Positions 1 through 22,725 of a DNA stretch of 64,000 nt are shown one piece after another (position 1 is the first letter of the stretch; every line of letters starts with the position of its first letter). This stretch comes from Zygnema cylindricum (lineage: Eukaryota; Streptophyta; Zygnematophyceae; Zygnematales; Zygnemataceae). The stretch spans positions 343,681-407,680 of the forward strand of contig JBBHKE010002948.1 of the NCBI GenBank assembly GCA_037447655.1, read 5' to 3'. Position numbers and translations under genes: made by a program. A model generated the notes under the pieces. That model saw only the letters and a program-made list of their open reading frames with translations, was not told the DNA's origin and searched no databases.

Positions 1-3000
1 GGAGCATTTAGACTTCTACTCAGCACTCCTACAGCTGCAGCTAAATCCGGCCGGGTACAATTCATAAAATAGATTAGACTTCCCACTACTTGCCTGTAAG
101 GAATAGTCTGCATGAACTTCTGTTCATCAGGAGATAATTCCTCGTCTAAGACTATGACTCCTTCTTCCTCACTCCCCTCACTTCCCTTCTTCAACTCCAT
201 TGGAGTTGTACAACTATTTGCTTTATCCATTTGAAATTTTTCAAGCATGTTACCTATTGCTTCCTTTTGAGTCAATCTTATAATTTTCCTTTTTCGGTCT
301 CTCTCTACTTGAATTCCCAAATTATATTTTGCTTCCCCCATATCCTTCATTTCAAATCTCCCCTTAAGATCGGTTTTCAGTTTATTAATTTTTTCCATTG
401 ATTTACTTAAAACAAGCAAATCATCAACATAAATTGCAATAAATATAAAACCTTTCTCATCTTCGAAAACATAGATTGAGTGATCTGAGCTGATCCGAAT
501 ATATCCTAGACCGGTAAGAAACTCATCAAGCTTCTTATTCCACTGTCGAGGCGCCTGTTTCAAACCATAAAGAGATTTAATCAGCCGGCATACCTTACTC
601 TCCTCTCCTTCTTCCACAAATCCTTCGGGTTGTCGCATGAAGATCTCCTCTTCCAATTCTCCATGCAAAAAGGCTGTTTTGATGTCCATCTGGTGCACTT
701 CCATGTCTTCCGCCGCTGCTAAACTGAGAAGTATGCGGACGGAGGGAAATCTGACCACCGGGGCAAAGGTTTCCTCGTAGTCAATTCCTTCCTTTTGTGT
801 AAATCCCTTTGCCACTAATCTGGCCTTGTAGCGCTCGATTGTGTTATCTGGGTTCAGTTTTAGTTTGAAAACCCACTTACAACCGATTGGTTTTCGGTTA
901 GGTGGACAGTCCACCAGCTCCCAAGTATCGGCTGCCATGATTGAGGCCATCTCCTCATTGATGGCTGTCTTCCACCGGTTTCTTTCTGGACAAGTCATCA
1001 CCTCTCGATAAGTTTGAGGTTCATCTTGATGAGATAGTTTAGTTACCTTGTTATTAACCAATTTTTCTTGCAGTCTTTTGCTACTTCTCCTTCCCCCCTC
1101 AAAATCTGAGGCCGGAATAGATGGTTCTCGTGGATTCTTTCGAACAAACTCGGCTTCTCCCCTATCCCTTGATTCCGAATCAATTTCCACCACGTCTTTT
1201 GCTTCGAGTAGAGTTGTCACTGGAGTTTCCACAGCCGAGTCCTTTTCGGTCTGATTTGTTCCTGCAAGAATGTCATCTTCTCTAAAACCTGGATAGTTAG
1301 GAAGCTCAAAGTCATCGGAATTTTCTGACTCAAATCTGATTTTTACTGACTTCGTATATTTGAAGGGATCCACAGACTTTCCTTCATCCATAACTACTAG
1401 ATGCTTTACTAAGATTATATCTTCCCTTTTTAGATCATAAACTCTATATCCTTTAACATCTTCATCATATCCTAATAAGTATCCTGGTTTTCCTTTAGGA
1501 TCTAGCTTCCAATCGGACCGATCAGTATCTAGACTGAACACTTGACTGCCGAAAACCTTTAAGTGAGATATGTCTGGTTTCCGGCCTGTCCATCTCTCAT
1601 AAGGTGTTTGATCTCTTATAGCCGAAGTAAGAACTCTATTCTTGAGGTAATTAACATAGTTCATTGCTTCTGCCCAAAACCTTTTCCCTATCTTTTTATC
1701 TGACAACATACTTCTAGCACTATCACTTAGTGTTCTATTTAACCTTTCAGCTACCCTATTTTGTTCCGGGTTTTTTGGAACTGTCTTTTGCTGTTGGACC
1801 CCATCTTCCCTCAGAAAATCCTCAAATTGGTTAGAAGTATACTCTCCACCATTGTCACTCCTTACTCTCTTGATTGGAGTTTCATGGAGTTTTTCGCTCC
1901 ATGCTTTATATTGTCTAAAACAATCCTCACCTTCGGACTTGTTTTTCAAAAAATATACCCGGGAAGACCGAGACCAATCATCAGTTATAGTCATCATAAA
2001 TCTCTTCCCCCCCGGTTAGGGCACTCTAGCCGGTCCCCAAATATCTGTGTGTACTAGATCTAGAATTTTTTCTCCCTTATAGGTGACTGACTTAGGAAAG
2101 GGTAATCTGTGTGCTTTACCTTGAGCACATCCACTACAATCACTTATATCATCACTCTCACTGAACTGAATCCCTTCAACCACTCCCATCTTTTTCATCT
2201 CTCTTAACTTATCTAGATTGACATGCCCAAGCCTCTTATGCCACATCATAATATCATGAACACCAACATAATAAAGTTTCTTCTTTTCATTACTTAAGAT
2301 CAGCCTAAACATCCCATGGCTACCTTTCTCAGCAATGAAATAGACATCATCCTCAAAACTAGCAGTAAAGACTCCTTCCCTAGTGCTAGTAAAAAAACCC
2401 TTATCATCTAATACTGATGTAGAGATAAGATTTTTGTTCAGCGCCGGAATAAACAATACATCGGAGAATGTTAATATGGATGTCTTTCCTTCTACTAACA
2501 CTTTTAGATCTACCGATCCTACAAGAGTAGTGGTGACTATCCTCCCATCCCCGTACTCTATCTCTACGGTGGGAATCTTTCTTATCTTAGTGAACAGGTG
2601 TCTATTCTTACACATGTGCATGGAGGCACTTGAATCTACAATCCAGCCTGCTTCACCTTTCAATCCACCGTAAGCACATTTCTGCCTTCGTGGAATTTCG
2701 ACCTCATTTTTTGCCTCCAACTCCTCATCCAAAAGGAGCTCATCGTCCTCGTCCTCGGATTCAGCCTCAAGTACCTGTGTGACAAGGGCCTTTTTCTTTC
2801 CTCTCGGGGTACCACCGGTCTACCCCTCCTTTAACCGAAGCTCGGTTAGCTTAGTGCACTCTGCCATATAGTGCCCCGGTTTCTTACAAAAGTGACATAG
2901 TCCTTTGGGAGCCCTTGGTTCGAACTCATCGGCCTGTTTTTTCTGCTCCCTACCCCCATAGTTTCCGACCGGTTTTCGGGAATCCCTGTTCCTCCAATCA

Positions 3001-3794
3001 GTCGCTGTTGCCAAGGCTTGGCCACTCTTTCCTCCCCTTCGGATCTCAATTGTATTCTCTTGAACGAGAATCATCCCTACCACTGAGTTCCATATCCACC
3101 TTGTTTCAGGCAAGTCCTGCACACGGTAAACTATGTTCACGAACTCATCAGGTAACTTCATCAGTAAACAGTTAACCTTTTCTTTTTCACTAAAATCTTT
3201 TCCCGCACTCTGTAGCTCCATGAAGAGTGTAGCAAGCTCATTGCAAAAATCCAACATATTTCCCCCTTTGTATACATACTCCTTAACTTTCTGATCAGCC
3301 AGCTGTTGTTGCTGAATCGTACCACTTCGATACATCTCTATGAGAGCCATCTAAAGATCGGATGCTCTTTCTACCTGCAAATGAGGACATGCAAGTCCTT
3401 GAGTGAGATGGCGTAGGATGAAGTGCTTTGCCGCCATATTGTTGAAGTCGCAGGTTTCAGTATCATTCTCCTCATTCCTCGAAATAGGTGACATGAATGT
3501 CGAACTAGTTGCTATTGGTGTGGTCGTCTCCTTCTCCTTTCCTTTGTCCACCACCTCTCATTCTTTTGTTTCCTCCGTTGAAGGTGGGTCCTCTTTCCTA
3601 GTGAATCTGGTTCCTCCAAACCCTGGAGGAATTCCAAGACTTGATGGACGCTCCAACCGTCCACTCACTATCCCCCAAAACCTTTTTTCGCATAGAGCTC
3701 CTATCATCATACTTTCCCAGTATATGAAGCCAGTTCCATTAAAGATTGGTACCTTAGAGGGTGGGCCCATAACCTGAAACTCTGAGACCTCCAT
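1..3794 (-). pseudogene. CopA-1 gag-pol polyprotein (one frame, four stops, incomplete at the edge)
   Basis: Gag, protease, integrase, RT and RNase H of a Ty1/copia element lie in one continuous minus-strand frame. It opens at an ATG in the LTR end (3792-3794) or at the ATG inside the primer-binding site. Domains in order: Gag N-terminus (GTGFIYWESMM); CCHC knuckle CHFCKKPGHYMAEC near 2850-2900; protease, with DSS where sister copies have DSG, near 2640; HHCC zinc domain (HKRLGH, CSGC) near 2130-2250; integrase core (HTDIWGP, SDNGGEY, QNRVAERLNRTL); RT with YVDD near 425-440; and an RNase H portion. In-frame stops lie at 3558, 3351, 2820 and 2016. I saw no frameshift from Gag to integrase, and the part below 2016 appears open to the edge. 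It is inactive as written but is one of the better preserved frames here. Confidence 0.85.
3762..3774 (-). promoter_or_regulatory. CopA-1 primer-binding site (half-tRNA-iMet type)
   Basis: The minus strand reads GGTTATGGGCCCA immediately downstream of the LTR end. This is complementary to the anticodon stem-loop of eukaryotic initiator tRNA-Met (TGGGCCCATAACC contains the CAT anticodon), not to a tRNA 3' end. Drosophila copia is known to prime from such an internally cleaved half tRNA. The same motif occurs at 32828-32840, after 39174 and at 62509-62521. The ATG inside it is in frame with Gag. Confidence 0.8.
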
Positions 3795-4823
3795 AAGTCC
3801 TCAGAGTAGACAGCTTCTAAGAAGCCTCTAGGATAATCCTGACCCTTTTGTGTTCCAGCAAAAATAACTGCCACCCTCGCAGACAAAAACCCTGACCACC
3901 TCCACCCCTGTAAAGGCAAGACTCCCCTGAGTCGGTAGCAAAAAGAATCTCTGAATTTGCTCCCCTGAGCAATACGTTATGGAGGGTCAAAGTTGACCTT
4001 TTGTACAAAAGCTCTCTGGGAGAAGGGGTCCTATCTTCTAATTTTTCTAAGTCCTATCTCTCTCACAGACTCTATCTACTGATGTACGGAACCAATCAGA
4101 ATTGAGTTCCGTACGCAAAAGTACAGCTGCCGGTGTACTTTATGTACGGACATTGTACGACATGGCCAAAATGTCGACACATGTCAAATCCGGATTCGGT
4201 GCCATAATCTCCGGAGATTCCACAATCCAACGGAATTTCGCCACGCGTCATCCGATGTGGCGATGGCCACAAACCGCCGAAATCTTCCTCTGCGATCTCG
4301 GCGCTAATTCTGGCCGTCCGATTAAATTCGGCTTTAATCGTAGCCGTAATAAATACATGCGCGGTATTTGTTTCATTTACGAAACAAATGCGCGGTACTG
4401 ATTTGTGTCCGTACCGTAAGTCGTACATTATATATTACTGGATCTATGTATCCCCTAATTCATTTCAGTTAAATGGTTTATCGCATGTATATATATTTAA
4501 ATAAATATCAAACTATATGCTACGTAACACTAGCGCTAGACTTAACGGCTAAGGCTACCGGCTATTTCCTGTCTGCCGGCCGGTAGGTACAAGGATCAAA
4601 TCCTGCAGCCGACACATACCTTTTAATTAAACAAATAAACCCTAATATAAAATTCCCGTAAACCTCAGGATAGCCAAGGTAGGTATGGCTCTAGCTTCCT
4701 CTCCAATTTCTCAGTGACTGCGACAAGTTTGAGAGTTGGAGAGAGAAGTTAGAGATAGAGTGCCTCGACTTCTATATTTTTTTTCAGACCTAGAAAATAC
4801 TAATAAAACCATTAGTTTCTACA
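3775..4823 (-). repeat. CopA-1 5' LTR
   Basis: This 1049 bp LTR has TG...CA ends. On the minus strand it starts TGTAGAAACTAATGG and ends CAGAGTTTCA. Homologous LTRs lie at 48962-50009, 52592-53636, 57157-58206 and 62522-63571. It contains a 9-bp-stem hairpin (4084-4114) and a tRNA-like segment (4537-4613) on the strand opposite to element transcription. Confidence 0.9.
4537..4613 (+). other. tRNA-like A-box/B-box segment antisense in the lineage A LTR
   Basis: An A-box-like stretch (ACGGCTAAGGC) is followed about 40 nt later by GGATCAAATCC, close to the Pol III B box GGTTCRANYCC. Matching segments occur in the other lineage A LTRs near 49726-49800, 53355-53430, 57919-57998 and 63279-63360. 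Each is antisense to its element. A full cloverleaf cannot be folded, so this is a tRNA-derived or Pol III-promoter-like sequence and not a tRNA gene. Confidence 0.4.
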
Positions 4824-4888
4824 CGCTGTTCAACCGCCTCTCCAGCCTCTGCCAGAAGACCAAACTGTCCACCATAGAAACACCGGCT

Positions 4889-6537
4889 ATGGCCACCAAA
4901 TATTATGTCGCTGTTCGAAATTCCTTCGGGCCAACGGGACAGGCAGCTCTGGACAATTGGAGTGCCAATCAAGCTATACACGATCGGAATCCCAGAGCTC
5001 AAGAAATTTCATTGGCTGCTATGAAATTGTATGATTATTTTGTTAATAGCGAGGCACGAGAAAAGGCTGTTACCTGGAAATCCCGAGCCAACTTTGCAGA
5101 TTTCGCCAGGGAAACATCGCTCAGCCATGACGAACAGACAGAACTGCAAGCTTTGCGGAAGCTTAAGGGGAAACAGGAAGCGGATGCCCGACCAGAACCT
5201 GCAATGGGGGGAGATGAAAAAGTTTTTCTTTACAACTGCCTGAACTGTAACCAGCCTGGTCACGGATGGAGAGGTGCCCCCGAAAGCTCAAACCAGAACT
5301 CGCCATCAAGCAGAAGGAGTTTGAGAGGGAGCGTGCGGAAAGAACAAGAAAACAGCAAGAAATCAAGCAAGGAAGCGGAGGAGGAGACCGAACCCCGCTC
5401 ACTAAGGAAACCTATAAACCTACTCCACGCTCTGAAACCGCCAAAATGTCTCAATCCCAGTTGAGACAAATCTGACTTCCGAAATTCGATGACGCTCAAA
5501 TCTCTAATGAGCGTAGGGGGAAGTATACTACTGAAGGGTCAAAATGTGAAGCTTGTGGGTTCATGGGCCACAAAGAAGGTTAATGCTTTCGGAAAAATGG
5601 GGTTCCGATAGAGATGATGCAATATGCTTTGTTTATAGGCGAAGGGGAAACTGCCGTTAATCCTCTACCGCTGCAACTTTTGTATCCCTGGGGACGATCT
5701 CCAAATGAACCGGGCCCCAGCAGACTGACACCGGAACATATCATTCAGCAACAGAGCACTCAGTTGGCCGCTTTCGCAACAGAACTGGCCGCTCTCCGAC
5801 TGAGATCCTCTGCCCGCACTCCTCAACCTCTTACGCCGGCTCAAAAACTGCAAAAACAAAAACAAGAACTGCTACAAAAGCTAGCGGAGCTGGAGCAGCA
5901 GACCACGTTGGGTGGAGATGATGATGACCTGATGGGTTTGGATATGGAGCCTCCAAAGGCTCAGCATGCTAGAACATTTCTGTCTGGAGCATGGAACGTT
6001 GGTGTAGGGCACAGTCGCAGGCAACTGCGCTCTACAACGTCATCCCAAAGAAAAGACGAACAACCGATGGAACAAAAGGACTACAGTCGCAAAGCCACCG
6101 GCCCGTTATCCTTTACCCCGCGAGCAGTCCTTCTAAACAGTAACATGGGACTGGGACTGAAGCCAACTAACCCGCCTCCTCCGGCTCCGAAGAAACTTCC
6201 TCACGGGTTTGAAGATTACAAGAAGACACAGCCGAAAGAAAATACTTCAACCACTGAAACAGATCAGGAGTGGTTCGACAGATACATGGCAGAGAGACCG
6301 TCCACAGATTTGCCAATTACACCTCCTACGGGAAATTTTGACGCAGAAAGTGAGGAAGCAGAGGGGGGGGAACAGGAGAAATCGGAAGACGAGGACTCAC
6401 CCATTTCATCGCCCAAAGCTCTCCCTCCTTCCTCCAAACAAGCAGTTATGCTAGTACGACACTTAATGCCCTACGCCTTGACGCATGTCAAAACGTTGGC
6501 TTCCTCCCACAATCTGCCCGGAGAAACCCTCATTTAG
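4889..6537 (+). pseudogene. MT-1 Gag with two CCHC zinc knuckles and a proline/glutamine-rich tail
   Basis: This is a structural Gag that would package element RNA. The first plausible ATG is 4889 (ATGGCCACC), but the frame is open upstream into the CopA-1 LTR, so the true N-terminus may be cut off. The first knuckle starts CLNCNQPGH at about 5239, and its last Cys comes only after a one-base frameshift near 5265. The second, CEACGFMGH at 5545, contains a stop (TAA, 5578). Another stop is at 5473. From 5614 a 307-codon stretch carries a Q/K/L-rich helical segment (about 5740-5900) and acidic and proline-rich regions, ending at TAG 6535. The frame resumes at once into the protease. The gypsy Gag assignment rests on the knuckles and position, since the N-terminal part is not a family I recognise. 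Confidence 0.7.
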
Positions 6538-7194
6538 GCATTAGGGGAAGAAACTCACACTAGGTGGAAAAGGGTCGCGTTGGCAGAACCGCCCAAGACA
6601 GTCTTCATGTCGGCAGAACCAAAAACCTCTATGGCAGATAGGGATTATAAGGCCCTTTCGGTGGCTCTTATTCTCAACAGGACGGGAAATTTTAAACTTA
6701 ATGGATACGGCGGGTACCAGGATGTAGTGGTGGATACCGGAGCTCTTCCAAACTTAATAACTACATCAGCATTTCAACAAATGCCCGAGGAACTTCAGCC
6801 AAAAATCAGTCCAAGTAACATATGCTTGAGCACAGTCAGCAGTGGCAGCCAACCAGTATATGGGATCATAAAAGCCATGGAAATCGAATTTGCTGACGAC
6901 GCAGGCCAGCACGTGCAGATTCGGCTTCCCTTCCTAGTGGTGGAAGGTAAGCAATTTGAAATTTTGCTGGGTATGGCTACGTGGACAAGGTTTAATATGG
7001 AGTTGAGCGTATGGAACGAACAAGTTACAGTCTCAGACCTTGAGGATCCGGAAGGAACAAAAGTGGTGGTCCCCTTGGATTTGTGGAACCAGGGAAAAAC
7101 GACTGTTCCAGTGTCTGGATGCTATCCCGTCTACTCTGCCTCAACCCCCTCGGAGCTGTTCAAATACTCTAACGATATCGCTGATTCTATCTAG
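6538..7194 (+). pseudogene. MT-1 retroviral-type aspartic protease
   Basis: This is a retropepsin-like domain for polyprotein cleavage. The catalytic DTG is in VVVDTGALPNLIT at about 6727-6765, followed by a flap-like region and the C-terminal hydrophobic-G motif EILLGMATW (about 6957-6985). It is in the same frame as Gag and the methyltransferase. Only a stop at 6535 separates it from Gag, and stops at 7192 and about 7237 separate it from the methyltransferase. Its place directly before the methyltransferase matches fragment MT-3 at 16399-17166. Confidence 0.8.
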
Positions 7195-7239
7195 CAATTC
7201 CCTTTTTCCAAGCGGTGGGAAAAGGAGTATCAGAACTGA

Positions 7240-8400
7240 TTGGTACAGATGGCCACACTTCGGCGGGAAGTGGATAGGAGCTTGGCTGCAATATCACCCG
7301 GATCAGCAAAAGTCCCCCGGTCGGAACTTCCAACGGTTCTTAACAAAGGGAAAGACTTTAATCGACAAGTGGTGTCACTACAAATCCTGCTTTCAGGACT
7401 TAGGATTCTCTCCCTATTTTCTGGCATTAGTTCCGATCTGGAAGCCGTCTTGAAAGCTGGATACCAAATAGAAACTTACTCGGCAGTCGAGATTGACCCG
7501 GATGCCCGTGCAATCAGTGAGTATTGCTTGCAACAGCTGCACCAACTTTACCCACAGCAACTCCTGGTGTCCGCCATGTCTAACTCTCATCGCACGGTTC
7601 CCCAGAATGTGGATAATATCACGGAGTCCCATATGAAAAGGCTTGGAAGGGTAGACCTTGTGGTCGCTGGATGGCCATGCCAGGGGTATTCGTTAGTAGG
7701 ACAGGGCCGAGGACACCAGGACGTCTGTAGCAGAACTTTCTTCCAAATGACCAGACTAATAACAGGGTTACAGGAACGCTAAGACACACCAGTGGGGTAC
7801 GTCTTGGAAAACGTTCACCCCACAGATGATAAGAGAAAACAGGTGGTCAACAGCTGGAACCAAGTGACGAAGGTTCTAGGGACTCCCATAGTTTTTGATG
7901 CAGCGCAGATCGGATCGAGAGCCCACAGAGTTCGGGCATATTGGACCAACTTGGTTCCTCTTCTAATCCTCCAACAGCTGTTGAGAACACAGGTTACGGA
8001 TCCCAACATCACGGTCCAACAGATTCTCGGACCGGGGCGAATGGCCACGCTGGTGATCACAGCCGACAAAGCACCCTTCTTCTCTTGTAATAAGCCTGGG
8101 TATCCACGGAGGGCCCTCCCAACTCTGGTATCTTTTCCTAACAGCCACGCTTACCGGAAGGGCGCACCAGGAATGATCTTTGACAGTACAACCGCCACGT
8201 GGACAGCGCGGAATATTACAGAAAGGGAACAAGCAATGGGGTTTCAACAGGGAACCACAGCTGCGCTAGGGGTATCGACTTCAAAAAGGTGCAGTTTAAT
8301 CGGACAAAGCATGGATTTAAATGCAATTTCCTGGGTGCTGAAACATTCTCTGGCATTCTCCAGCCTTCAGTCTCCACAATCTCGGACAACATACCTTCAA
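7240..8400 (+). pseudogene. MT-1 C5 cytosine DNA methyltransferase domain
   Basis: A complete catalytic core of about 310 residues lies between protease and RT. Motif I (SAM binding) is ILSLFSGI at 7405-7428. An acidic residue follows in SAVEIDPDA. Motif IV is GWPCQGYS, with the catalytic Cys codon at 7678-7680. Motif VI is ENV at 7807-7815. Motif VIII is AHRVRAYWTN near 7921-7950. Motifs IX/X follow as EREQAMGF (about 8221) and LIGQSMDLNAISWVL (about 8296-8340). The AHRxRxxWxN form of motif VIII and the spacing resemble the DNMT3/DRM group more than bacterial enzymes, although PCQG is also seen in other groups. One in-frame stop (TAA 7780-7782) breaks it. No PWWP, ADD, UBA or BAH domain is attached. 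The inferred role is methylation of DNA, either the element's own copies or host targets. Confidence 0.88.
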
Positions 8401-9732
8401 GCTCCACAGTTGTTGGCCATGCAGGCAACTCTAAAGCTTGAGGGGGGGAGAGAGACAAGGAGGGAAAAGAAATCAAGGAGGGAAAAATTCACATTCACCA
8501 AATTCCCAGGAACTTCCTCAGTGGGGGGGAGCAATGGCACACTGGACCCAAGAGTTTCCTTAGTGGGGGGGAACGGAGTCTCAGAACATGACAGCCTAGA
8601 GGAAGTTATCAGCAGCAGCATTTTAATAGCCAAACAAAGGGCAGACCCACTGGTAGAGCTGAACTTCAACATCTCTCTCTTGGGGAGACCACCGGAAGCA
8701 TTGGCGGCAGTGGAACCCGGGAAGATGGACTGGACTCTAGGTGAACATCTGGACCCACAGCAGAAGGCCCGGCTCTCCAAGCTGTTAGAAGAGAACTGGC
8801 AGGTGTTCGCCTGGTCTGACACAGATGTAGGGATCTATAAGGGAACTCCTTTTCGGATTGACCTGATCGACGAGACGGCTACTGTTTGGCAGAAACAGTA
8901 CCCTCTCAGTTTCAAGGAGAAGGAGTTGATCACTTCAAAGGTGCAAACTTTGGTGGAAGCTGGGCTGGTTCAGGAGAGTACAGGACTACATGGGTTTGCC
9001 TCACCAACTATGCTCCCGCCAAAGAAAGACTCCTCCGGAAAAACTGTAGATTTCCGGATGTGTGGGGACTATCAGATGCTCAACGCGGCGACTGTCTCCG
9101 ACCTTTATCCTATGCCTACCCCGGAAGAGATTTTCGATTCTCTTGCTGGGGCTACCATTTACACTACTTTGGATATAAAAAATGGATTCCACCAGATTGC
9201 AATGGAGCCGAAACACCGAGTGAGGACTGCTTTTTGGGCCGGATCCAGGCTATATGAATGGTTGTACATACCATTTGGCATAAAGAATGCACCTGCCAAA
9301 TTCCAACGGGCCATGGACGAGGCTCTCCGGGGAATTGATTTCGCACGGTGTTATATCGACGATGTCATCATTTTCTCCATGACATTTGAATAACACTTGG
9401 AGCACATACAGATCGTTCTCCGGGCACTCCAAGCCGCGGGCTTGAAGTGTCACCTGGGGAAGGGCATCTTTGGGGTGCAGAAAATTATTTATGTGGGTCA
9501 TGAGGTGACTCTCGGGACAGTGGGTCCCCACATGGTTAAGGTGGCAGCCCTAGACGCTCTTCCACCCCCGCTGGACATTTCTGCTCTTCGTACTTTCCTA
9601 GGCCTTGCCAACTATTACCGGCGGTTTATTCCTGATTTCAGTAGCCACGCTCAACCATTGAACCAATTGTTGCGAAAGGACCAGGAGTGGCAGTGGAAGG
9701 AAGAACAGCAGATAGCGTTCAAATTTTCGTGA
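8400..9732 (+). pseudogene. MT-1 reverse transcriptase
   Basis: A linker with G-rich tracts (8441-8580) is followed by a Ty3/gypsy RT. Visible motifs are PSFKEKEL-like entry sequence near 8905, LPPKKDSSGKTVDFRMCGDYQ near 9015, TTLDIKNGFHQIAM near 9163, PFGIKNAPAKFQRAMD near 9270 and the catalytic YIDDV at 9352-9366. A stop (TAA 9391-9393) follows the active site, then the thumb (LALQAAGLKC-type region, FLGLANYYRRFIPDF near 9595-9640) continues in the same frame. A frameshift near 9720 moves the reading into RNase H. The product would copy element RNA into cDNA. Confidence 0.88.
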
Positions 9733-10190
9733 AGGATTCCCTCAAACAGCATCTTGTGCTCCGGATGCCCGATCACCAGCGACCTTTTTTCCTTTATACA
9801 GATTGGAGCAGGTTCGGATTAGGAGCAGTTTTGGCTCAATTGGATGACGCAGGGGCTGAGTATGTAGTTGCCTACGCAAGCCGGAGTAGTAACAGAGCCG
9901 AGGGAAATTACAGCAGTTACCATGGGGAATTTTTCGCTGCGGTTTGGGCCATCCAGCACTTCCGGCCTTACCTCTATGGAGTACACTTCACCCTTATTAC
10001 GGATCACCAGCCCCTCAAATGGATGATGGAGAATAGTAAGTTGACTGGAAAGCTGGCCAGATGGGTTCTCATCTTGCAGGAATATGATTTCACCATCATC
10101 CATAGAGCCGAGGAGATTCATGGGAATGCGGACGGACTCAGCAAGAATCCGGACCCTTCCACCACAGACTCTACTGGGGCGCGACATGAC
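9733..10190 (+). pseudogene. MT-1 RNase H
   Basis: A Ty3/gypsy RNase H domain continues from RT after the frameshift near 9720. It shows YTDWSRFGLGAVLAQ near 9796-9840 (TDAS is usual in the family), AYASRSSNRAEGNYSSYHGE near 9872-9930, ITDHQPLKWMM near 9997-10030 and ADGLSKNP near 10129-10152. It is open over its length. It would remove the RNA strand during reverse transcription. Confidence 0.85.
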
Positions 10191-11616
10191 GAAGACCCTG
10201 AGCTCAGCCTGGGACTCATCCTAGCTTCCTCTGCTTTTATTTGGCTGCCTCGGGCCAAAGGAGAACTGTCAACTTTTGCTGCAGATGTAGAGGGGCAGGC
10301 CCCTATTGGAGCCGGCCTGAAGGATATATGGAATGACAACGATTCCCTCCAATCCATCCAGAAGGGCTCTCCTCTATCCCACCTTGCCAGAAGTCAATTG
10401 TCCCTTGTTCGAAACCGAATGGCGGCATATAAATTGGACCGAGGCATCCTTCTCCGGAAATGGGCCGATGGGACGAGGAAATTGGTTCCTCCTCCAGCAG
10501 ATCGGGAAACGCTCATTGTTCGGCTTCACCAGCAATGCGGGCACTTCAGACAGAAACGAACCACCTCGCTAGTCACAGGGTTGTATTGGTGGCATGGGTT
10601 GGGGGCCCAGGTCAATCGTGTGGTGCAAACGTGCCCTTCCTGTGACCGGGTAAAAGCAGCTTTTGACAAAAAGGGTGGAACTGAGCTTCACTCCCTCCCC
10701 ATCCGGGGGATGTTTTACAGATGGTCACTACATCTGCTAGGACCACTTCCAACTAGCCGGAGGGGGAACCGTTTTGTTCTGGTCATGATTGAACACTTCT
10801 GTAAGTGGATGGAATTGGTGGTTCTTCCCCGAAAGGAGTCCAAAGCAATCGCGGACGCATTCTTGCAGAGAGTGTTGTCTCAATTTGGAGCACCAGCCGA
10901 AGTTCTGACGGATCAGGGGTCCGAGTTTGCCGGAGAATTCTCTAACTTTTTGGAGAAGTGCCTGATTGACCACAGATTAACCAGCTGAGACCACCCCCAA
11001 GCCGACGGCTTGGCCGAAAGGTGCATACAGACAGTGAAGCGGTCACTACGGAAATATGCGGTTGAAGAGGATTTGGGGGAGTGGGACACACGGGTGCCTT
11101 GGATCGCTATGGGGTACAGGTTCAGCAGGCAGGCATCTCTCCACTCCTATAGCCCTTACTTCATTCTCTTTGGCCGACATCCCATCCTACCAGGGGCTGC
11201 GTCGGCTCAGGCGGTTGTTCTTCCGGAGATGGACAACCGGATACTGTAGAGAAACTGATTGCCGACAGGGCTAAGGTATTTCAGCGGGAAATACCTCTGG
11301 CCATGGGCAATTTACAGGCTGCTCAGCACAGAGATCAACTCTGGTATTCCCAGCGACGGAGTGGCAATTATGTCCCCGGCAACGTCGATTTGTGCCCGGG
11401 GATTTTATGTATCGCATGCAACAGAAGAAGGATACTTTGGACATTTCGGCCGGACGAATGATTCTGAAAGTGGTGGAGGTCTCGAACAAAGGGGTTCTTA
11501 CCTTGGAAGGGAAGGATGGTCGCAAAATTAAAGAAAATCGGATCAATGTGGCCCCTTGCCATCTGCGAGGGTTAGAGGATGAACCCACTTTCCACCTCAC
11601 TTATTTTGCAGACCCT
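10190..11616 (+). pseudogene. MT-1 integrase (zinc domain, DDE core, C-terminal domain)
   Basis: The HHCC zinc domain is visible as HQQCGH near 10525 and CPSC near 10633. The catalytic core follows. The first Asp position reads LHLLGPLP, a His replacing the usual Asp (near 10728). The second Asp is in LTDQGSEF near 10905. A stop (TGA 10986-10988) sits just before DHPQADGLAERCIQ, which holds the Glu. After a stop at 11247 the reading moves to another frame (AQHRDQLWYSQRRSGNY, about 11335-11370), then to a third near 11380 (RRFVPGDFMYRMQQ), the usual gypsy C-terminal module. It is clearly inactive here. It would insert the cDNA into the genome. Confidence 0.82.
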
Positions 11617-11781
11617 CCAGCCTGTTCCTCTGCCTGCCATGTGTCCTCCGTACCCTACCTCCTGTTGGTGTGTGAACGCTGTCACCAGGGGTGGCATGAC
11701 TACTGCCTACCTCTGAATTGAGAGCCCCGCTCTCAACCCGCAAATCCGTGGTTTTGTGGGGACTGCGAGTTTGGCGGCTAA
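11617..11781 (+). pseudogene. MT-1 C-terminal PHD finger
   Basis: A C4HC3 zinc finger of PHD type follows the integrase in the same frame. It reads CSSAC, then CERC, H and C in LVCERCHQGWHDYC (about 11663-11710), and finally WFCGDC near 11752-11770. Aromatic Trp before His and before the last Cys pair is typical of PHD fingers, which bind histone H3 tails. One stop (TGA 11719-11721) lies in the long loop. The first pair is spaced CxxxC instead of the usual CxxC. The frame closes with TAA at 11779. It sits where many plant gypsy elements carry a chromodomain, so a role in choosing integration sites is plausible. Confidence 0.8.
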
Positions 11782-11791
11782 TCTGTCTAAT

Positions 11792-11817
11792 CCTCTTAGT
11801 CACGTGGGACTAAGAGG
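11792..11817 (+). other. Perfect 10-bp-stem hairpin after the MT-1 stop codon
   Basis: CCTCTTAGTC (11792-11801) and GACTAAGAGG (11808-11817) are perfect complements around a 6-base loop. It lies 10 bases after the polyprotein stop and runs into a G-run (11815-11823) that could be the polypurine tract. Its function is unknown. Confidence 0.6.
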
Positions 11818-11823
11818 GGGGGG

Positions 11824-12034
11824 AAATCTGGGAAGGGGGGAACAGGGTACTTTTCTTTTCTACTCCATTCCTCCTTACTCTCTATCCATATCTTTGGGGG
11901 GGGGGGTAATGAACAGAGATGGGCATTATCACGGATCCAAGGGAGCATCAGCATTTGGGGTGGATTGCAGGTTTCTCATGCACACCTCCTTGGACATATA
12001 ACCTGGACCTTGCGGTTACCAGGCACGCTTGACA
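11824..12034 (+). repeat. Direct repeat copy 1, probable start of the MT-1 3' LTR
   Basis: About 211 bp beginning AAATCTGGGAAGG recur at 13224-13435, exactly 1400 bp later, with roughly 96 percent identity by eye. The position just after a purine run following the last codon suggests an LTR start (TGGGAAGG at 11829). No TG...CA pair could be proved. Confidence 0.65.
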
Positions 12035-13223
12035 ACTGTCAAGCACGTGTGCATCTTCCGCACATTTGCACTCCCAGGAGTTCCAGGGCTTCATTCCACT
12101 TGGGACGGACTCTAGCGTACTGAGAAGGAAGAGGACAATCACCCGGATCAGATCTTTCTATTTTCATCCTGGAACACTACGCACTTTAGTTCACCTTAAA
12201 CGGAGGTCGACCTGAGGAGTTAGTCCGGTGCAAAGTGTCTGATCCATTATAGTGTGTGTTCTATGTAGCTCTAGCAGAGGGATACCTTAGAGAACGACAC
12301 GTCACATTTGGGATTATCCCGTAGATCTTACTGTTAGCTGTCAGTATGATGTTAGTTCAGGCCCAACCACCGGGCAAAGCATTTATGACGTAGGGACAAA
12401 GTTAGGCGGTTTCACGTCGAGTCAGAACTTTGTTTCTATTTTGTGTATTATAGAAGGACCTTCGGCCGCCAATTCAGCCAAAACCAGTCGTCTATCTTTT
12501 AGCCCTGAGTGTAGTACAGTCTGTTTTGTCTTATGTCAGGACGATAACAATTACTGGCCGCTGATTGGCTTGTTAAATTGCTTTGACTTTGGAACTTGCA
12601 GTAGGACAAACTCAAATTGTATAAGGCACTTGGGGCCGAAGGAGACAGGTTGCTTTTCAGTACTGTCTCCTGAGAAAACCCCCAGCGAATTAAAATCAAT
12701 CTTTCTGTTGGAGAACGGTTGCATTGTGTCATGGACTCTATTGCCATCTTTGTTTTGGATTGTCTTTTGTGGAGACCGTAGCACGGGTGGGTAGTTGGCA
12801 CTATCTCCTCTTTGGGCGGTTTGGACTTTCGCTGTTTGAAACTAAGAAGAGTCTTGTCGGATCCTTGCTGTGGAACCGGGAGGGTTGAGGGAGACTCATA
12901 CCGGTCTTCGCGGCCATTGGGAGAGGTTTCTTCTGCTGAGTTTGGCCATCGTTGCACTCCGGGGTATGTGAATTCGCCTCACCATTATCATTCATTTCTA
13001 TCTTTAATTTCATTCTCTAGTGCAAGGTGATATTGTTTAATCTGAAAAGCCGATATTTATTATTTCTATATTTCTGCGTGGGAGTTATTTGCACACTCTT
13101 GTGGTCATCCTTGGGTTTGTCCGGATTTTTCGCGCAAAGGATCGGACGACTCTCATTTCCTTCCTATTCTTTGGAGAGTAGCTGGGAGTGTGGCATTAAG
13201 TGGGCTCCCAGTGGAGTAGCACA
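12035..13223. other. Non-coding stretch between the two direct repeats (probable LTR interior)
   Basis: No retroelement domain or convincing coding sequence is visible in either strand. The longest open stretches have no recognisable motifs. An inverted repeat (CTGGGAG/CTCCCAG) lies near 13190-13211. It is best explained as U3/R/U5 sequence of the MT-1 3' LTR. Confidence 0.4.
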
Positions 13224-13435
13224 AAATCTGGGAAGGGGGGAACAGGGTACTTTTCTTTTCTACTCCATTCCTCCTTACTCTCTATGCATATCCCTGGGGG
13301 GGGGGGGTAATGAACAGAGATGGGCATTATCACGGATCATAGGGAGCATCAGCATTTGGGGTGGATTGCAAGTTTCTCATGCACACCTCCTTGGACATAT
13401 AACCTGGACCTTCCGGTTACCAGGCACGCTCGACA
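13224..13435 (+). repeat. Direct repeat copy 2
   Basis: This matches 11824-12034 with few substitutions and a one-base change in a G-run. It ends abruptly where the minus-strand copia fragment begins (about 13437). It could be the start of a second LTR from a tandem LTR arrangement, truncated by the copia sequence. Confidence 0.65.
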
Positions 13436-15934: not shown

Positions 15935-16395
15935 GGCATGAATAAATAAAAAAGGCCTAAAGAGCGGCTGCTGTGTAATATAAGTCGTACGGTCGACGTC
16001 AAATGATCAAAGCTACCGTCGGCGAGAATCGCGCAAAATATATATAATACGGTAAGTTTGTTTGTCTCGACGCGATTCGAAAATGTGTCGTCGGCGAGAA
16101 ATCTGGAAAAAATAAATAAGTACGGCAAGACCGCAAGTACGGTCCAATTTGTGGCCGCGGGAATTCCGGTCGACGTAAGTCGTACGGTCGACGCGAAATA
16201 ATCAAATCCGCCGTCGGCGGAAATCGCAGAAAAGATACGTCGTACAGTAGGACCGCGGGTACGATCCAAATTGCCATACCGGAAATCACGAAAAATGTAG
16301 GCCGTACGCTACACGTCGTACGGTCCTGCGAAACCCAAATAATACCCAAATACAAATTAGTGTAGCGGCTGCCCTTCCTAACACCTAAATATAAA
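15935..16395 (-). repeat. LTR-like region with a 195-bp-spaced repeat and CGTACG/TCGGCG words
   Basis: No coding sequence is seen. AAGTCGTACGGTCGACG occurs at about 15982 and 16177, each followed by a related 45-nt stretch, and CGTCGGCGRGAAATC-type words occur three times. On the minus strand TGTTAGGAAGGGCAG (near 16385) could be an LTR start lying just downstream of the MT-3 coding fragment. Confidence 0.4.
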
Positions 16396-16398
16396 CAA

Positions 16399-17166
16399 CT
16401 AAATGGCCGACGAGATGCGGCATGACAGTATTCCAGCGAAAAGGTCGAAAATCACCAATCCATTTGGATGAGGGTTCAATTGGACCGGATTCGAATTAAT
16501 GTGAAGAATCCTAGAAGAGTCTATAGGGACTGGGATTGTGGGAGAGAGCGGAGAAAGTGGAATTGACAAGGTTTGGTTATAGATTCGGTCAAATTCCCTC
16601 GTATCTATAAGAAAACCTGGGTCATTGAAAATTTCTGGTAAGAAAGAACTATCGGGCATAATTTCTTCTGCTGATAATGAATGAAATATTTCGCCCCCTA
16701 CCGAATTCCCTAAAAATGCAGGTATGGATGTGGCCGAATTCGCCATAATAGGCATGGGCTTCCTAGCGGAAATTAGCGGAATGCAGATTATGTGTTCCGG
16801 AAAGTTAGTGGGCCTATAAGAAAACGTTTGATTATGCATGTCAACTCCACCCCCAACACGAAATATAACATCCTGTCCCACTAGGCATTCATAGTCACTA
16901 CATTTAGTGACCAGAGCGTGACCCAAGATCTCAGCAAAGTTTGTGGCCGTTCCGTTCTGGAACCTGAAAACGATCGGTTCCTTAGTGAATCCTAGGACTG
17001 GCTCGGTTGTACTCGCTAAGGTTAACAAATGAGTAGAAGTGGACTGAAGCTTATCCGGAGTTAGACCAAGCTTCAGTGCAAAGCTAGAGCCAAATATCAC
17101 CGGCTTTGCACCCGTATCTATGAGAGGCAAGGAAGGGGCTATACCATTGATCAACAATGCACCCAA
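16399..17166 (-). pseudogene. MT-3: retroelement protease followed by methyltransferase motif I
   Basis: This is an uninterrupted 255-codon minus-strand frame. The N-terminal half is a retropepsin-like protease: catalytic DTG in LPLIDTGAKPVIFGSSFALKL (near 17090-17130), and YECLVGQDVIF at the family's C-terminal position (about 16860-16890). After about 110 residues of linker the frame reads GLVIFDLFAGI near 16430-16462, a canonical C5-methyltransferase motif I, and then ends abruptly. The order matches MT-1, but the sequence is clearly diverged, so this is a second family or an old relative. The rest of the enzyme is lost at the LTR-like boundary. The protease call is firm; the motif I call rests on one short motif plus context. 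Confidence 0.65.
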
Positions 17167-17358
17167 TAAACCGACCTAACTATAACCAGCTAAGTCGTTG
17201 ACCTTTCTTCTTTTTTCCACCTTGCCTGTTGTTGTATTTATCCATTGTTGCTTTTTTGTTTTATTTCATTTACGATATCTTGCTATCATTTGAGTTTAAG
17301 TTGAGCACAGCTGATGATATTGCATGCATTTTCATGTTATTTGACACATGCACGACAT
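17167..17358. other. Unassigned 190-bp stretch
   Basis: AT-rich sequence between the MT-3 fragment and CopA-2. Nothing recognisable on either strand. Confidence 0.5.
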
Positions 17359-20321: not shown

Positions 20322-20772
20322 AACATTTGGTCGCTAGAATTCCGAGGAACATATGGACGAATGGAAGGGTGACACGTGTCCACTCAGTGGCCTTGTCGTA
20401 CACAGGTCGTACAGAAAGGACATCGGCCGTAGTACCTTTTTTTATTTTACACTCATATGATTGGTTCGTACCTTAGTAGATAGGGGTTGTGAGAGGAGTT
20501 TAGGACTTAGGAAAATTTGGTAGGTAGTCACCTCTCTCTAAGAGAGCTTTGTATAAATTGGCATTTTTGCCGGCTCATAACTTATTGGCTGGTTGGCCGT
20601 TATAAGTGATTCTCTTTGCTACAAACTCAAGGGATTCCAGGCTGCACAAGGGTGCTGTTAGATTGTCAGTTTCCCTTCTTGGGCAGTAATGGTTGTGGCT
20701 TGAAGTGGGTTAGTAAAAAACTATCTAAAGGCTTGCTGAATTTTGTAGTCCAATGGAGGACACATAATTGCA

Positions 20773-21801
20773 TTTGGCGGATCCCCACACCAACTTATTT
20801 TTTGAATTGGTTCGCATCCTGCATTTCTACAAACTTTAGAACATCTTATGGGATATAATGTGGAATATGTCGCGGCCTATAACGATCTATGACCCATAGT
20901 TCTGGCTGATTATCAACGGATCGAACAATTAATTAGTTAACCCCTTATTGTTGACGTCACTCCCCATGGTCACTAGCACACAGGGTTCGCTCCAAATGGA
21001 CGAACGTGATTGATATTGGTCGACTTCGTGAGGCTAACCTGTTAGTTTGTCCTCTTCCTACAAATATTCAGGGTGCCTTTCTTCCTTTCCATAAGCTGCG
21101 GCCTTGCATTAAAAATGACTGTCCCCCTGATTTCAATATTAATGTCCCGGGTCAACCTCTCAAGGTTCTTCCTACCATAATTTCTTACCCACATTCGCAT
21201 GCATTATCTAATGACGGTCCTGACATGCTCCCAAACAATCATACCAGTAAGCTCGAAGAGCCTACCTCTACGGAGCGAGAACACCTCATGCATTTAAGTC
21301 TTACAGAACGTAAAAGGTGCATTTTATTAGGTTGTATCATGGACACGCAGTCTTTGTCTTTTGTTTGAGGTCTTGGGTTTGCAACTAGTCGCCACTTTCA
21401 GGCACATCCGTCTCTATCAGCTTGGGGGGGGGGAAATGGATCATTAAGTAAATCGTTTTGTCCTACTCTAAAAAGCAACACATTTCAATTTTTCCTCTTT
21501 CCTTCTCCAATTCAACTTGTTTCGAAAATCTCTATCTACTATTTCCTCAATCGTAGCCATATGTCCTGGTCTATCCCTTTATACACGGCTTTCCAGTCTG
21601 CAAGTTCAATGCATAATCCACCCACTCACCATTAGACTGCTGCATTTGTAACACGCAGCTGGAATCATTCGGTTAAGAGATTTAAACATACATCTTTGGC
21701 TTACGAGTTAGGACAAACGCTAATCGCAGATGAGCAGTTGGCTTTTGTACAAGACATAGAGGCCATGACAATTGGGAATCCCGATGTTCCAAAATGGAAA
21801 T
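20773..21801 (+). pseudogene. MT-2: C-terminal half of a retroelement cytosine methyltransferase, with trailing linker
   Basis: This fragment is trapped between the CopA-2 LTR end and the CopA-3 LTR start. DPHTNLFFELVRIL (about 20780-20822) matches the stretch after motif IV in DNMT3/DRM-type enzymes. AHRVRSKWTN (20976-21005) is motif VIII, almost the same as in MT-1. LPTIISYPHSHAL, TEREHLMH and RCILLGCIMDTQSLSF (about 21170-21365) parallel MT-1 motifs IX and X. It is continuous from 20976 to a stop at 21366, with a frameshift and stops upstream. A G-run follows (21424-21433), as in MT-1, and then a coherent stretch (about 21650-21800) that may be the pre-RT linker. Motifs I and IV are lost. 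Divergence from MT-1 is large. Confidence 0.75.
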
Positions 21802-22725
21802 TGTTGAAATAGGTATTTTTTAGTCTTGCTTTTTTTATCTTCCTACAGCCCTCATACTTGTCGTATTCACTGAGGAGGTGCAGGCAGCCATCGCTGCCCC
21901 ATGCAAGCAAGGAGACAGAGCAGAATTTTTAGTTTTAATGCAAAAGTTAGGCGATCACTAAAGGGACTACATCCGGTGACCTCCGGATAGACTACCGTAT
22001 GGCTTAGCCATCAACCTTATCCGGCAAGTCTTGATGAAACGATATACATAATGGGTTTGATACATATTTATAATGTAACGCGTTGGCATACTTCATTTAA
22101 CATATTATGGACGAAGTGGACATGAAACGTGCTGGACCCCACGAAATAATGTACCGCACAAAACGACATCGAATATCGACAGACGAAATTGAAAGTCGTT
22201 CCCGATCGACGGCTCGCGAAGGAGCCGGATTTCAGGAGTGGTTTTTGGCGGTTTGGTGAACATATGTCGGCGGTTGACATGTGGCGAAGGATGATTGGAG
22301 AGCAGGTATCGCGGAGGGAGCAACTTCTATTCACGAACAAACACGCGTCAAACGAGCGGCCATGCTGTATTATGGTCGTACAAAAAGTAAAGCGGTACTT
22401 TTACCTTCTTCTACCTTACAGTCTTTTCATTAGATGGGTACTCTAGTAGTAGGCTTACGGAGGTAGTTTAGGAATTCAAATATATCTTGGGTTTCAGCCT
22501 CTCTCCCAAAGAGCACTGGTATTTATAGGCCAACTTTGATCAGCCATAACTTAATGCTCGAGGAGCAATTTCAGTGATTCTTTTTGCACAAGACTCATGG
22601 GAGTTTACCCTACACAGGGGTGGAGGCGGTCAGAGGTTTTGCGTCCTAGTGTGGGACTTATTTTATGCCAAAGTCAAAAGTGCAAATAATATCCTAGCGT
22701 CTTCACATAAGCTGGACATTCTATG
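21802..22725 (+). repeat. CopA-3 5' LTR, left part
   Basis: Starts TGTTGAAATAGG. The right 25 bp of this LTR lie at 32803-32827, beyond the lineage B tandem. A candidate target duplication is CTATG (22721-22725) versus CTGTG (32798-32802), with one mismatch. Confidence 0.75.

Follow-up and report, generated by a model that had tools for sequence, protein, structure and literature searches.

Retrotransposons are normally the victims of DNA methylation. Here, we describe a Ty3/gypsy retrotransposon of Zygnema cylindricum (Zygnematophyceae) that carries a cytosine methyltransferase domain, together with its copies and relatives. The window, which is the whole stretch of DNA analysed, has 64,000 nucleotides and corresponds to positions 343,681 to 407,680 of contig JBBHKE010002948.1 (assembly GCA_037447655.1); positions given below are counted from its first letter. 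The remains of the element were delimited by self-comparison, a domain map and the repeat ends, and they span positions 4832-13435 of the forward strand. Within them, frame +1 encodes a C5-cytosine methyltransferase domain (7390-8355), whose catalytic motifs follow one another in canonical order in the translation and in an alignment of 12 family members. Motif I (LSLFSG, S-adenosylmethionine binding) is located at 7408-7425, motif IV (AGWPCQG, with the catalytic Cys) at 7666-7686, motif VI (ENV) at 7807-7815 and motif VIII (AHRVRAYWTN) at 7921-7950. Motifs IX-X (EREQAMGF ... IGQSMD) occupy 8221-8316 and align with the C-terminus of DNMT3A; the motif-X-like GQSMDLN starts at 8302. An earlier note, made from the sequence alone, had placed motifs I, IV, VI, VIII and X in this order at 7390-8345, and both the motifs and the start of that span are borne out, while the domain reaches about 8355. 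The check that it had proposed, a match to PF00145, gave 34.8 bits (E 1.6e-8) when only the open reading frame (ORF) 7240-7779 was scored, and 41.7 bits (E 1.3e-10) when stops were treated as X; both values exceed the curated cut-off of 22 bits. A single stop, at 7780-7782, interrupts the domain.

The motif order I-IV-VI-VIII-IX-X, which is that of the DNMT3 class, is found in the window and in its relatives. DRM, the plant rearranged DNMT3, has a permuted order in which motifs VI-X precede motifs I-V. The earlier description "DNMT3/DRM-like" can therefore be kept for DNMT3 and has to be dropped for DRM, because the order is canonical and not permuted; moreover, DRM2 matches only positions 2-131 of the 322 positions of the profile. 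In the profile ranking of 57 PDB sequences, none of which is named DNMT1 or CMT, and in the fold ranking, DNMT3 is closer to the element methyltransferase than the other classes. The fold search reached DNMT3 in the PDB with an E value of 3e-19, the best value in a viral structure library being only 3.8e-15. A viral source was considered and rejected: 31 pattern stretches were found in viral contigs and seven of them encode relatives, all with only 25-27% identity. These seven (L041-L047) are phage-type DNMT3-like methyltransferases. A bacterial source was rejected as well, as none of four pattern stretches in prokaryote genomes encodes a relative. De novo DNA methylation is a predicted activity of the element enzyme.

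The remainder of the element, all on the forward strand, can be described from its 5' side. The 5' end is missing where the long terminal repeat (LTR) of a copia element ends at 4824. A gag-homologous stretch in frame 2 (4883-5461) is matched by the gag of other copies in tblastn. The aspartic protease (6658-7137, in ORF 6538-7191) scores 21.1 bits with Asp_protease_2 (E 5e-4), below the cut-off of 24.3 bits, and is 87-94% identical in the eight window-like copies. The methyltransferase is followed by the reverse transcriptase (RT; 8773-9390, RVT_1 68.1 bits), by RNase H (9720-10184, RT_RNaseH 124.5 bits) and by an integrase with an H2C2 zinc finger and a DDE core (10455-11246, one stop inside; Integrase_H2C2 49.6 bits, rve 35.8 bits, tblastn). 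The integrase tail (11275-11766, the end of its tblastn match) terminates in a degenerate PHD finger with 13.6 bits, below the cut-off of 24. A purine run at 11812-11823, directly before repeat B1, has the position of a polypurine tract and is placed in the same way in the subfamily-B copy L012. Repeat B1 (11824-12034) ends in GACA and is 96% identical to repeat B2 (13224-13435), whose final GACA, at 13435, is the preserved 3' end of the element. The interval between them (12035-13223) opens with a 2-bp spacer (12035-12036) and otherwise consists of repeat A2, whose first letters are TGTC; much of this tail is common to copies L010, L021 and L027.

The order of protease, RT, RNase H and DDE integrase is that of Ty3/gypsy elements, and the methyltransferase lies inside this polyprotein between the protease and RT, as the earlier note had it. 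Protease, methyltransferase and RT share one frame. That note had also put gag in it and had counted only one stop; the gag piece is in frame 2, however, and the count is right inside the domain but leaves out two stops between protease and methyltransferase (7192-7194 and 7237-7239). The RNase H/integrase ORF (9645-10985) is not in the frame of the protease either, and a stop also ends the RT frame. The window copy is thus a dead, 5'-truncated pseudogene, since stops separate its domains and the gag and RNase H/integrase parts lie in other frames; with its frameshifts and lost 5' end, it is not the complete copy that had been claimed.

The assembly has 2689 contigs, which add up to 352.8 Mb. 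It contains at least 123 matches to PF00145 (123 scored of 782 candidates), all above the cut-off, among which host genes may be included. With the window domain as query, at least 121 rows were obtained, which correspond to at least 120 places including the window's own, with 61-100% identity; as 120 of 1865 candidates were scored, this copy number is a lower bound. Among the matches listed, 24 of the 121 rows have no internal stop, some of them being partial. Three pairs of copies (C507/C1662, C1042/C633 and C1920/C1974) are identical or nearly so in the domain or in score. Such pairs may be haplotype duplicates, and copy counts may be inflated for this reason.

Twenty stretches of ten kb on 20 contigs were hand-picked from the PF00145 list, with a preference for high scores and long frames. 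These loci were selected for having the methyltransferase, and therefore they test the position of the domain and not its frequency. A protease is found upstream of the methyltransferase in all 20 (L012 and L013 reach no more than 40 bits), RT downstream of it in 19, and an integrase is seen in 17. The earlier note would have been refuted by other copies lacking the segment between protease and RT; the fetched copies carry it there, with one RT missing, and the further copies that the note had asked for are many, with open frames including the domain of up to 2395 amino acids. Eight loci belong to subfamily A, which is window-like, ten to subfamily B (about 40% identity in the domain) and two to subfamily C (48-60%), from which we conclude that the genome holds at least three subfamilies. 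A chance insertion or an assembly chimera of one copy would fit the broken reading frame of the window element. Against such an artefact, 20 further loci, each on its own contig and outside the window, have the same order, RT being absent from one, and this order recurs in proteins that databases list for other organisms, so that we give this explanation practically no credence. That the enzyme is peculiar to the window copy is ruled out by the number of places and by the protease at every fetched locus. Taking identity and family together, we regard it as almost certain that the window domain is a DNMT3-class methyltransferase of a multicopy Ty3/gypsy lineage.

The arrangement of the repeats can be read from two copies. 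One subfamily-B copy has the form A (931 bp)-coding-B (242 bp)-A-B, in which the two A repeats are identical over 931 bp and the two B repeats differ by one gap. In a second subfamily-B copy, repeat A is about 1385 bp long, with 4 differences between its two A repeats. Simple identical LTRs at both ends are thus replaced by A-coding-B-A-B in two copies, and the window retains the coding-B-A-B part of these split repeats. The copies checked for their ends are L029/L012/L030 (C1344) and L031/L016/L032 (C829). Both start with TGTC and end with GACA, and they are flanked by 4-bp target duplications, TTGG and AAGG. The internal B-A junction reads GACA-GC-TGTC in both, and GACA-AC-TGTC at B1-A2 of the window. 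In subfamily A, some 3 kb upstream of the gag match of copy L021 (flanks L033 and L034), a stretch with 83% identity to A2 is probably the 5' A repeat; another A-like stretch (77%) in L033, on the other side, makes this assignment uncertain. The PHD finger after the integrase is better preserved in L012 (43.8 bits, above the cut-off of 24) than in L024, where it is weak and partial (17.9 bits).

The PAT, kangaroo and DIRS elements are split-direct-repeat elements with the same A-coding-B-A-B form and an internal copy of their end-to-end junction; they use a tyrosine recombinase and make no target duplication. By analogy with such split-repeat models, the internal junction of the Zygnema elements would be a copy of joined element ends. 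The Zygnema family differs from these elements by its DDE integrase and its 4-bp duplications, and no recombinase domain was found among the Pfam matches of the pieces tested. Identical repeats and long open frames indicate recent activity of some copies, and we conclude from these comparisons that the methyltransferase elements are an established family of which a part has recently been active.

Selection was estimated with the Nei-Gojobori method, decaying copies included. For window-like copies, the median ratio of nonsynonymous to synonymous substitution rates (dN/dS) is 0.27 for the methyltransferase (34 of 36 pairs, range 0.11-0.50), 0.22 for RT (28 of 36 pairs) and 0.33 for the protease (36 of 36 pairs, up to 1.18). 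For subfamily B, pooling gives ratios of nonsynonymous to synonymous differences (pN/pS) of 0.175, 0.071 and 0.192 for methyltransferase, RT and protease, respectively. Most pairs of this subfamily are synonymously saturated, with pS of 0.74 or more (35, 35 and 32 of 45 pairs, in the same order), and their median pN is 0.146, 0.063 and 0.154; pairs that yield a ratio number nine, seven and twelve, with protease values up to 1.33. These values indicate that purifying selection has retained the enzyme for long periods, though under weaker constraint than RT.

We consider it somewhat probable that the DNMT3-class methyltransferase is a fixed and selected part of Pol in a multicopy, split-repeat Ty3/gypsy lineage, and that it acts on the element's own complementary DNA (cDNA). 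The enzyme would be made as a part of Pol and would be packaged into the particle together with RT and integrase. Its substrate would be the double-stranded cDNA, methylated most probably at CG and no later than at integration, and the PHD finger of the integrase tail may help to choose the chromatin. As a benefit, the new DNA could look like host heterochromatin or self, or it could be protected, and silencing would be the price. That self-methylation of cDNA is the main role of the enzyme seems quite possible to us, with the balance slightly on the side of doubt. A precedent is the retroelement Dnmt3 of Symbiodinium, which methylates CG in yeast according to the main text of de Mendoza et al. 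2018 (PMC5890265).

All 12 aligned members, which represent several lineages, have the catalytic Cys, EN in motif VI and both Arg of motif VIII. Such conservation is expected if catalysis is selected, and it speaks against a structural or RNA-directed role, in which the domain would be kept for nucleic-acid binding or RNA methylation and DNA methylation would be secondary. That role could account for motif IV being AGW(P/E)C in the element family versus GGSPC in DNMT3A, for the divergent target-recognition part and for a negative assay: the isolated domain of KnitGypsy-Dnmt3, from the charophyte Klebsormidium nitens, gave no methylation in yeast, a result which its authors treat as inconclusive (PMC5890265, main text). 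We judge such a role quite unlikely. The negative assay also weighs against an enzyme acting on the element's own cDNA, as do the faster evolution of the enzyme relative to RT, the changed motif residues in L017 and L027, and several features of the methylation footprint.

The footprint was taken as the C/T differences between copies by sequence context, in pairs that are not independent. Window-like copies show 10.6% at CG, 9.3% at CHG and 4.9% at CHH. For copia, two pairs of stretches from the window, all without a visible methyltransferase, show 8.3-12.0%, 12.9-13.0% and 5.4-5.7%, respectively; in these copia pairs, the differences at CHG are over 2x, and those at CG about 1.5-2x, those at CHH. 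The CG/CHG excess of the window-like copies is therefore not above that of copia in the same window. Subfamily-B copies have 18.9% at CG, 19.8% at CHG and 16.8% at CHH, which is a slight excess. The observed/expected ratio of CpG is 0.62-0.66 in subfamily A, 0.88-0.93 in subfamily B, 0.60-0.66 in copia-rich parts of the window and 0.62-1.17 in four antenna-gene loci. Subfamily B is hardly CpG-depleted, so that a special footprint of self-methylation was not seen in it, and no mark peculiar to methyltransferase elements was seen in the C/T contexts and CpG ratios of A, B and copia. Because copia without a visible methyltransferase has an excess of about the same strength, the CG/CHG signature looks like host methylation of A elements and copia alike, and not like an element-specific mark. 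These results speak against a strong and lasting signature of self-methylation; methylation of the cDNA would still be compatible with them.

In a host-directed role, the enzyme would act on the host and not on the cDNA of the element; for example, it would dilute or misdirect host silencing or mark the neighbourhood of insertions as a counter-defence. The PHD finger behind the integrase, at the score seen in L012, suggests contact with chromatin, many copies could raise the cellular activity, and an effect of this type is considered for Symbiodinium in the main text of de Mendoza et al. (PMC5890265). Opposed to this are the CG/CHG signature shared with copia elements and the methylome of K. 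nitens, which the same text describes as plant-like despite such elements (PMC5890265). We judge a host-directed role distinctly unlikely. Methylation of the element's own cDNA keeps our preference. An element that retains its own de novo-type methyltransferase across synonymously saturated lineages probably gains from it.

Relatives were collected in two protein searches, in each of which about 8000 candidates were scored. The searches gave 11 and 18 relatives, 26 of them distinct, one of which (P0147) is a distant phage-like enzyme. By Pfam, 10 of the other 25 have a retroelement domain in the same protein, and 15 have the methyltransferase only or no listed domain. Named sources are Chromochloris (P0008, labelled Chrzof1), Haematococcus lacustris (P0011) and Closterium sp. 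NIES-54 (P0012). The enzyme has two positions in these proteins. It precedes RT in P0002, P0003 and P0006, as in the window. In P0008 it lies between RNase H and integrase, and a G-patch separates it from the latter; P0005, P0007 and P0010 have it ahead of integrase and PHD. All four of these proteins have the PHD finger after the integrase. P0011 is ambiguous, with a protease far upstream and no RT in the model.

Two positions could mean that elements with the enzyme on the protease/RT side and elements with it on the RNase H/integrase side took it up separately. Consistent with two captures, the four proteins with a downstream integrase form one clade with seven others in a 39-row tree (100/99). 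In the same tree, subfamily B stands apart from A with weak support and a long-branch warning, and P0002 and P0003 join the window-like and C copies (95/96). Against two captures, a 25-row tree, which also contains one DNMT3A and eight enzymes of phage type, unites the 16 family members in one group on a long stem (100/100); no retroelement domain is listed for four of these members (P0133, P0134, P0138 and P0139). DNMT3A falls on the family side there, and its split from the eight phage-type rows has only 92/96; both trees are without a cellular green-lineage DNMT3. Furthermore, the pairs compared among the integrases of A, B, P0005, P0008 and P0010 have 46-51% identity, while the value for P0007 is 38% and that for C against the window is 77%; a PHD tail is present in both types. 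Given these similar integrases and the shared tail, one capture with one later move of the enzyme would be the simplest reading, and separate captures appear unlikely, though not remote.

Other parts of the window contain further remnants of the family. A second remnant, of subfamily B, lies on the reverse strand (15975-17357) and is composed of a piece of repeat A, a piece from protease to motif I (16429-17164), which is 92% identical in nucleotides to copy L016, and an inverted piece of repeat B. Its junctions are exact, and it looks like a rearranged, possibly non-autonomous derivative. A 74-bp direct repeat with a spacing of 195 bp (15981-16249) lies within the stretch matching the subfamily-B repeat A. 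A third remnant, also of subfamily B, on the forward strand (20768-21803, 83% nucleotide identity to L016), comprises a degenerate C-terminal half of the methyltransferase and the linker between methyltransferase and RT. Positions 1-4824 and 17358-64000 contain much nested copia, with LTRs of ~1050 bp, several pairs of which are 95% identical; for a copia protein, the best identity among 120 matches listed is 50%. Elsewhere in the genome, light-harvesting genes form clusters on C519 and C2590, and weaker matches on C610 and C1077 are, as a guess, ELIP-like. One antenna protein shares 179 of 221 positions with PDB chain 5xnl_3, which we take to be a pea chain of the Lhcb3 class, typical of land plants; this makes a streptophyte host likely. 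A search of the assembly for rbcL gave no match.

Other retrotransposons with accessory enzymes provide a basis for comparison. A demethylase of N6-methyladenosine acts on RNA adenine and has a fold unrelated to that of a cytosine methyltransferase. Ty3/Gypsy elements of orchids, which are reported to contain such a demethylase domain (PMC9289625), likewise have an accessory nucleic-acid-modifying domain. The remaining comparisons with individual elements follow the main text of de Mendoza et al. 2018 (PMC5890265), by which the kind of element seen here was already known, as the earlier note had stated. SymbioLINE-Dnmt is also a retrotransposon-borne cytosine methyltransferase, but it belongs to an orphan methyltransferase class and is located in ORF1 of a LINE. 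SymbioDIRS-Dnmt3 resembles the Zygnema family in having DNMT3 in Pol, two domain architectures and split repeats; it is a tyrosine-recombinase element, whereas the Zygnema family has a DDE integrase and 4-bp target duplications. KnitGypsy-Dnmt3 is a Gypsy element whose Pol ORF includes Dnmt3; it is intronless and multicopy, with copies said to be fewer than in Symbiodinium, and has DIRS-like A-coding-B-A-B repeats; it is described as under purifying selection and as an independent acquisition. Judged by the published text and figure legend, the Zygnema family shares Dnmt3 in Gypsy Pol and the DIRS-like repeats with it; no KnitGypsy sequence was identified among the search matches. A term search of that main text gave no PHD, protease, chlorophyte or Closterium, and the KnitGypsy account there is also without target duplications, TGTC/GACA ends and a second position of the enzyme.

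Green-algal occurrence is not new as such, because a 2019 opinion article, in a brief remark, assigns methylase-encoding Ty3/Gypsy and DIRS elements to green algae and to charophytes, with land plants excepted (PMC6338049). A land plant as host would call for a correction of that remark. A passage of a 2025 paper repeats the occurrence in streptophytes and dinoflagellates (PMC12344493). The parts of the literature searched gave no description of the PHD tail, the two enzyme positions or the 4-bp duplications; these may be new in detail, the kind of element being known. New relative to the published accounts are, apparently, the spread to chlorophytes and Closterium and the two positions of the enzyme. 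With about 120 listed places, young insertions and old subfamilies, Zygnema would be a good host in which to pursue the question of cDNA methylation left by the 2018 paper, and the chlorophyte and Closterium spread, the two positions and the combination of split repeats with a DDE integrase make the origin and the replication route testable. Tentatively, and with more doubt than confidence, we propose that one ancient capture of DNMT3 gave rise to a lineage of the whole green line that combines a writer, a PHD reader, a DDE integrase and split repeats. The writer would have moved between the protease/RT and the RNase H/integrase positions, and the GACA-NN-TGTC junction would integrate with a 4-bp duplication by a route mixed from those of DIRS and Ty3. 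If this is true, the published view, which restricts the capture to the Klebsormidium lineage, would give way to a single ancient capture in the green line.
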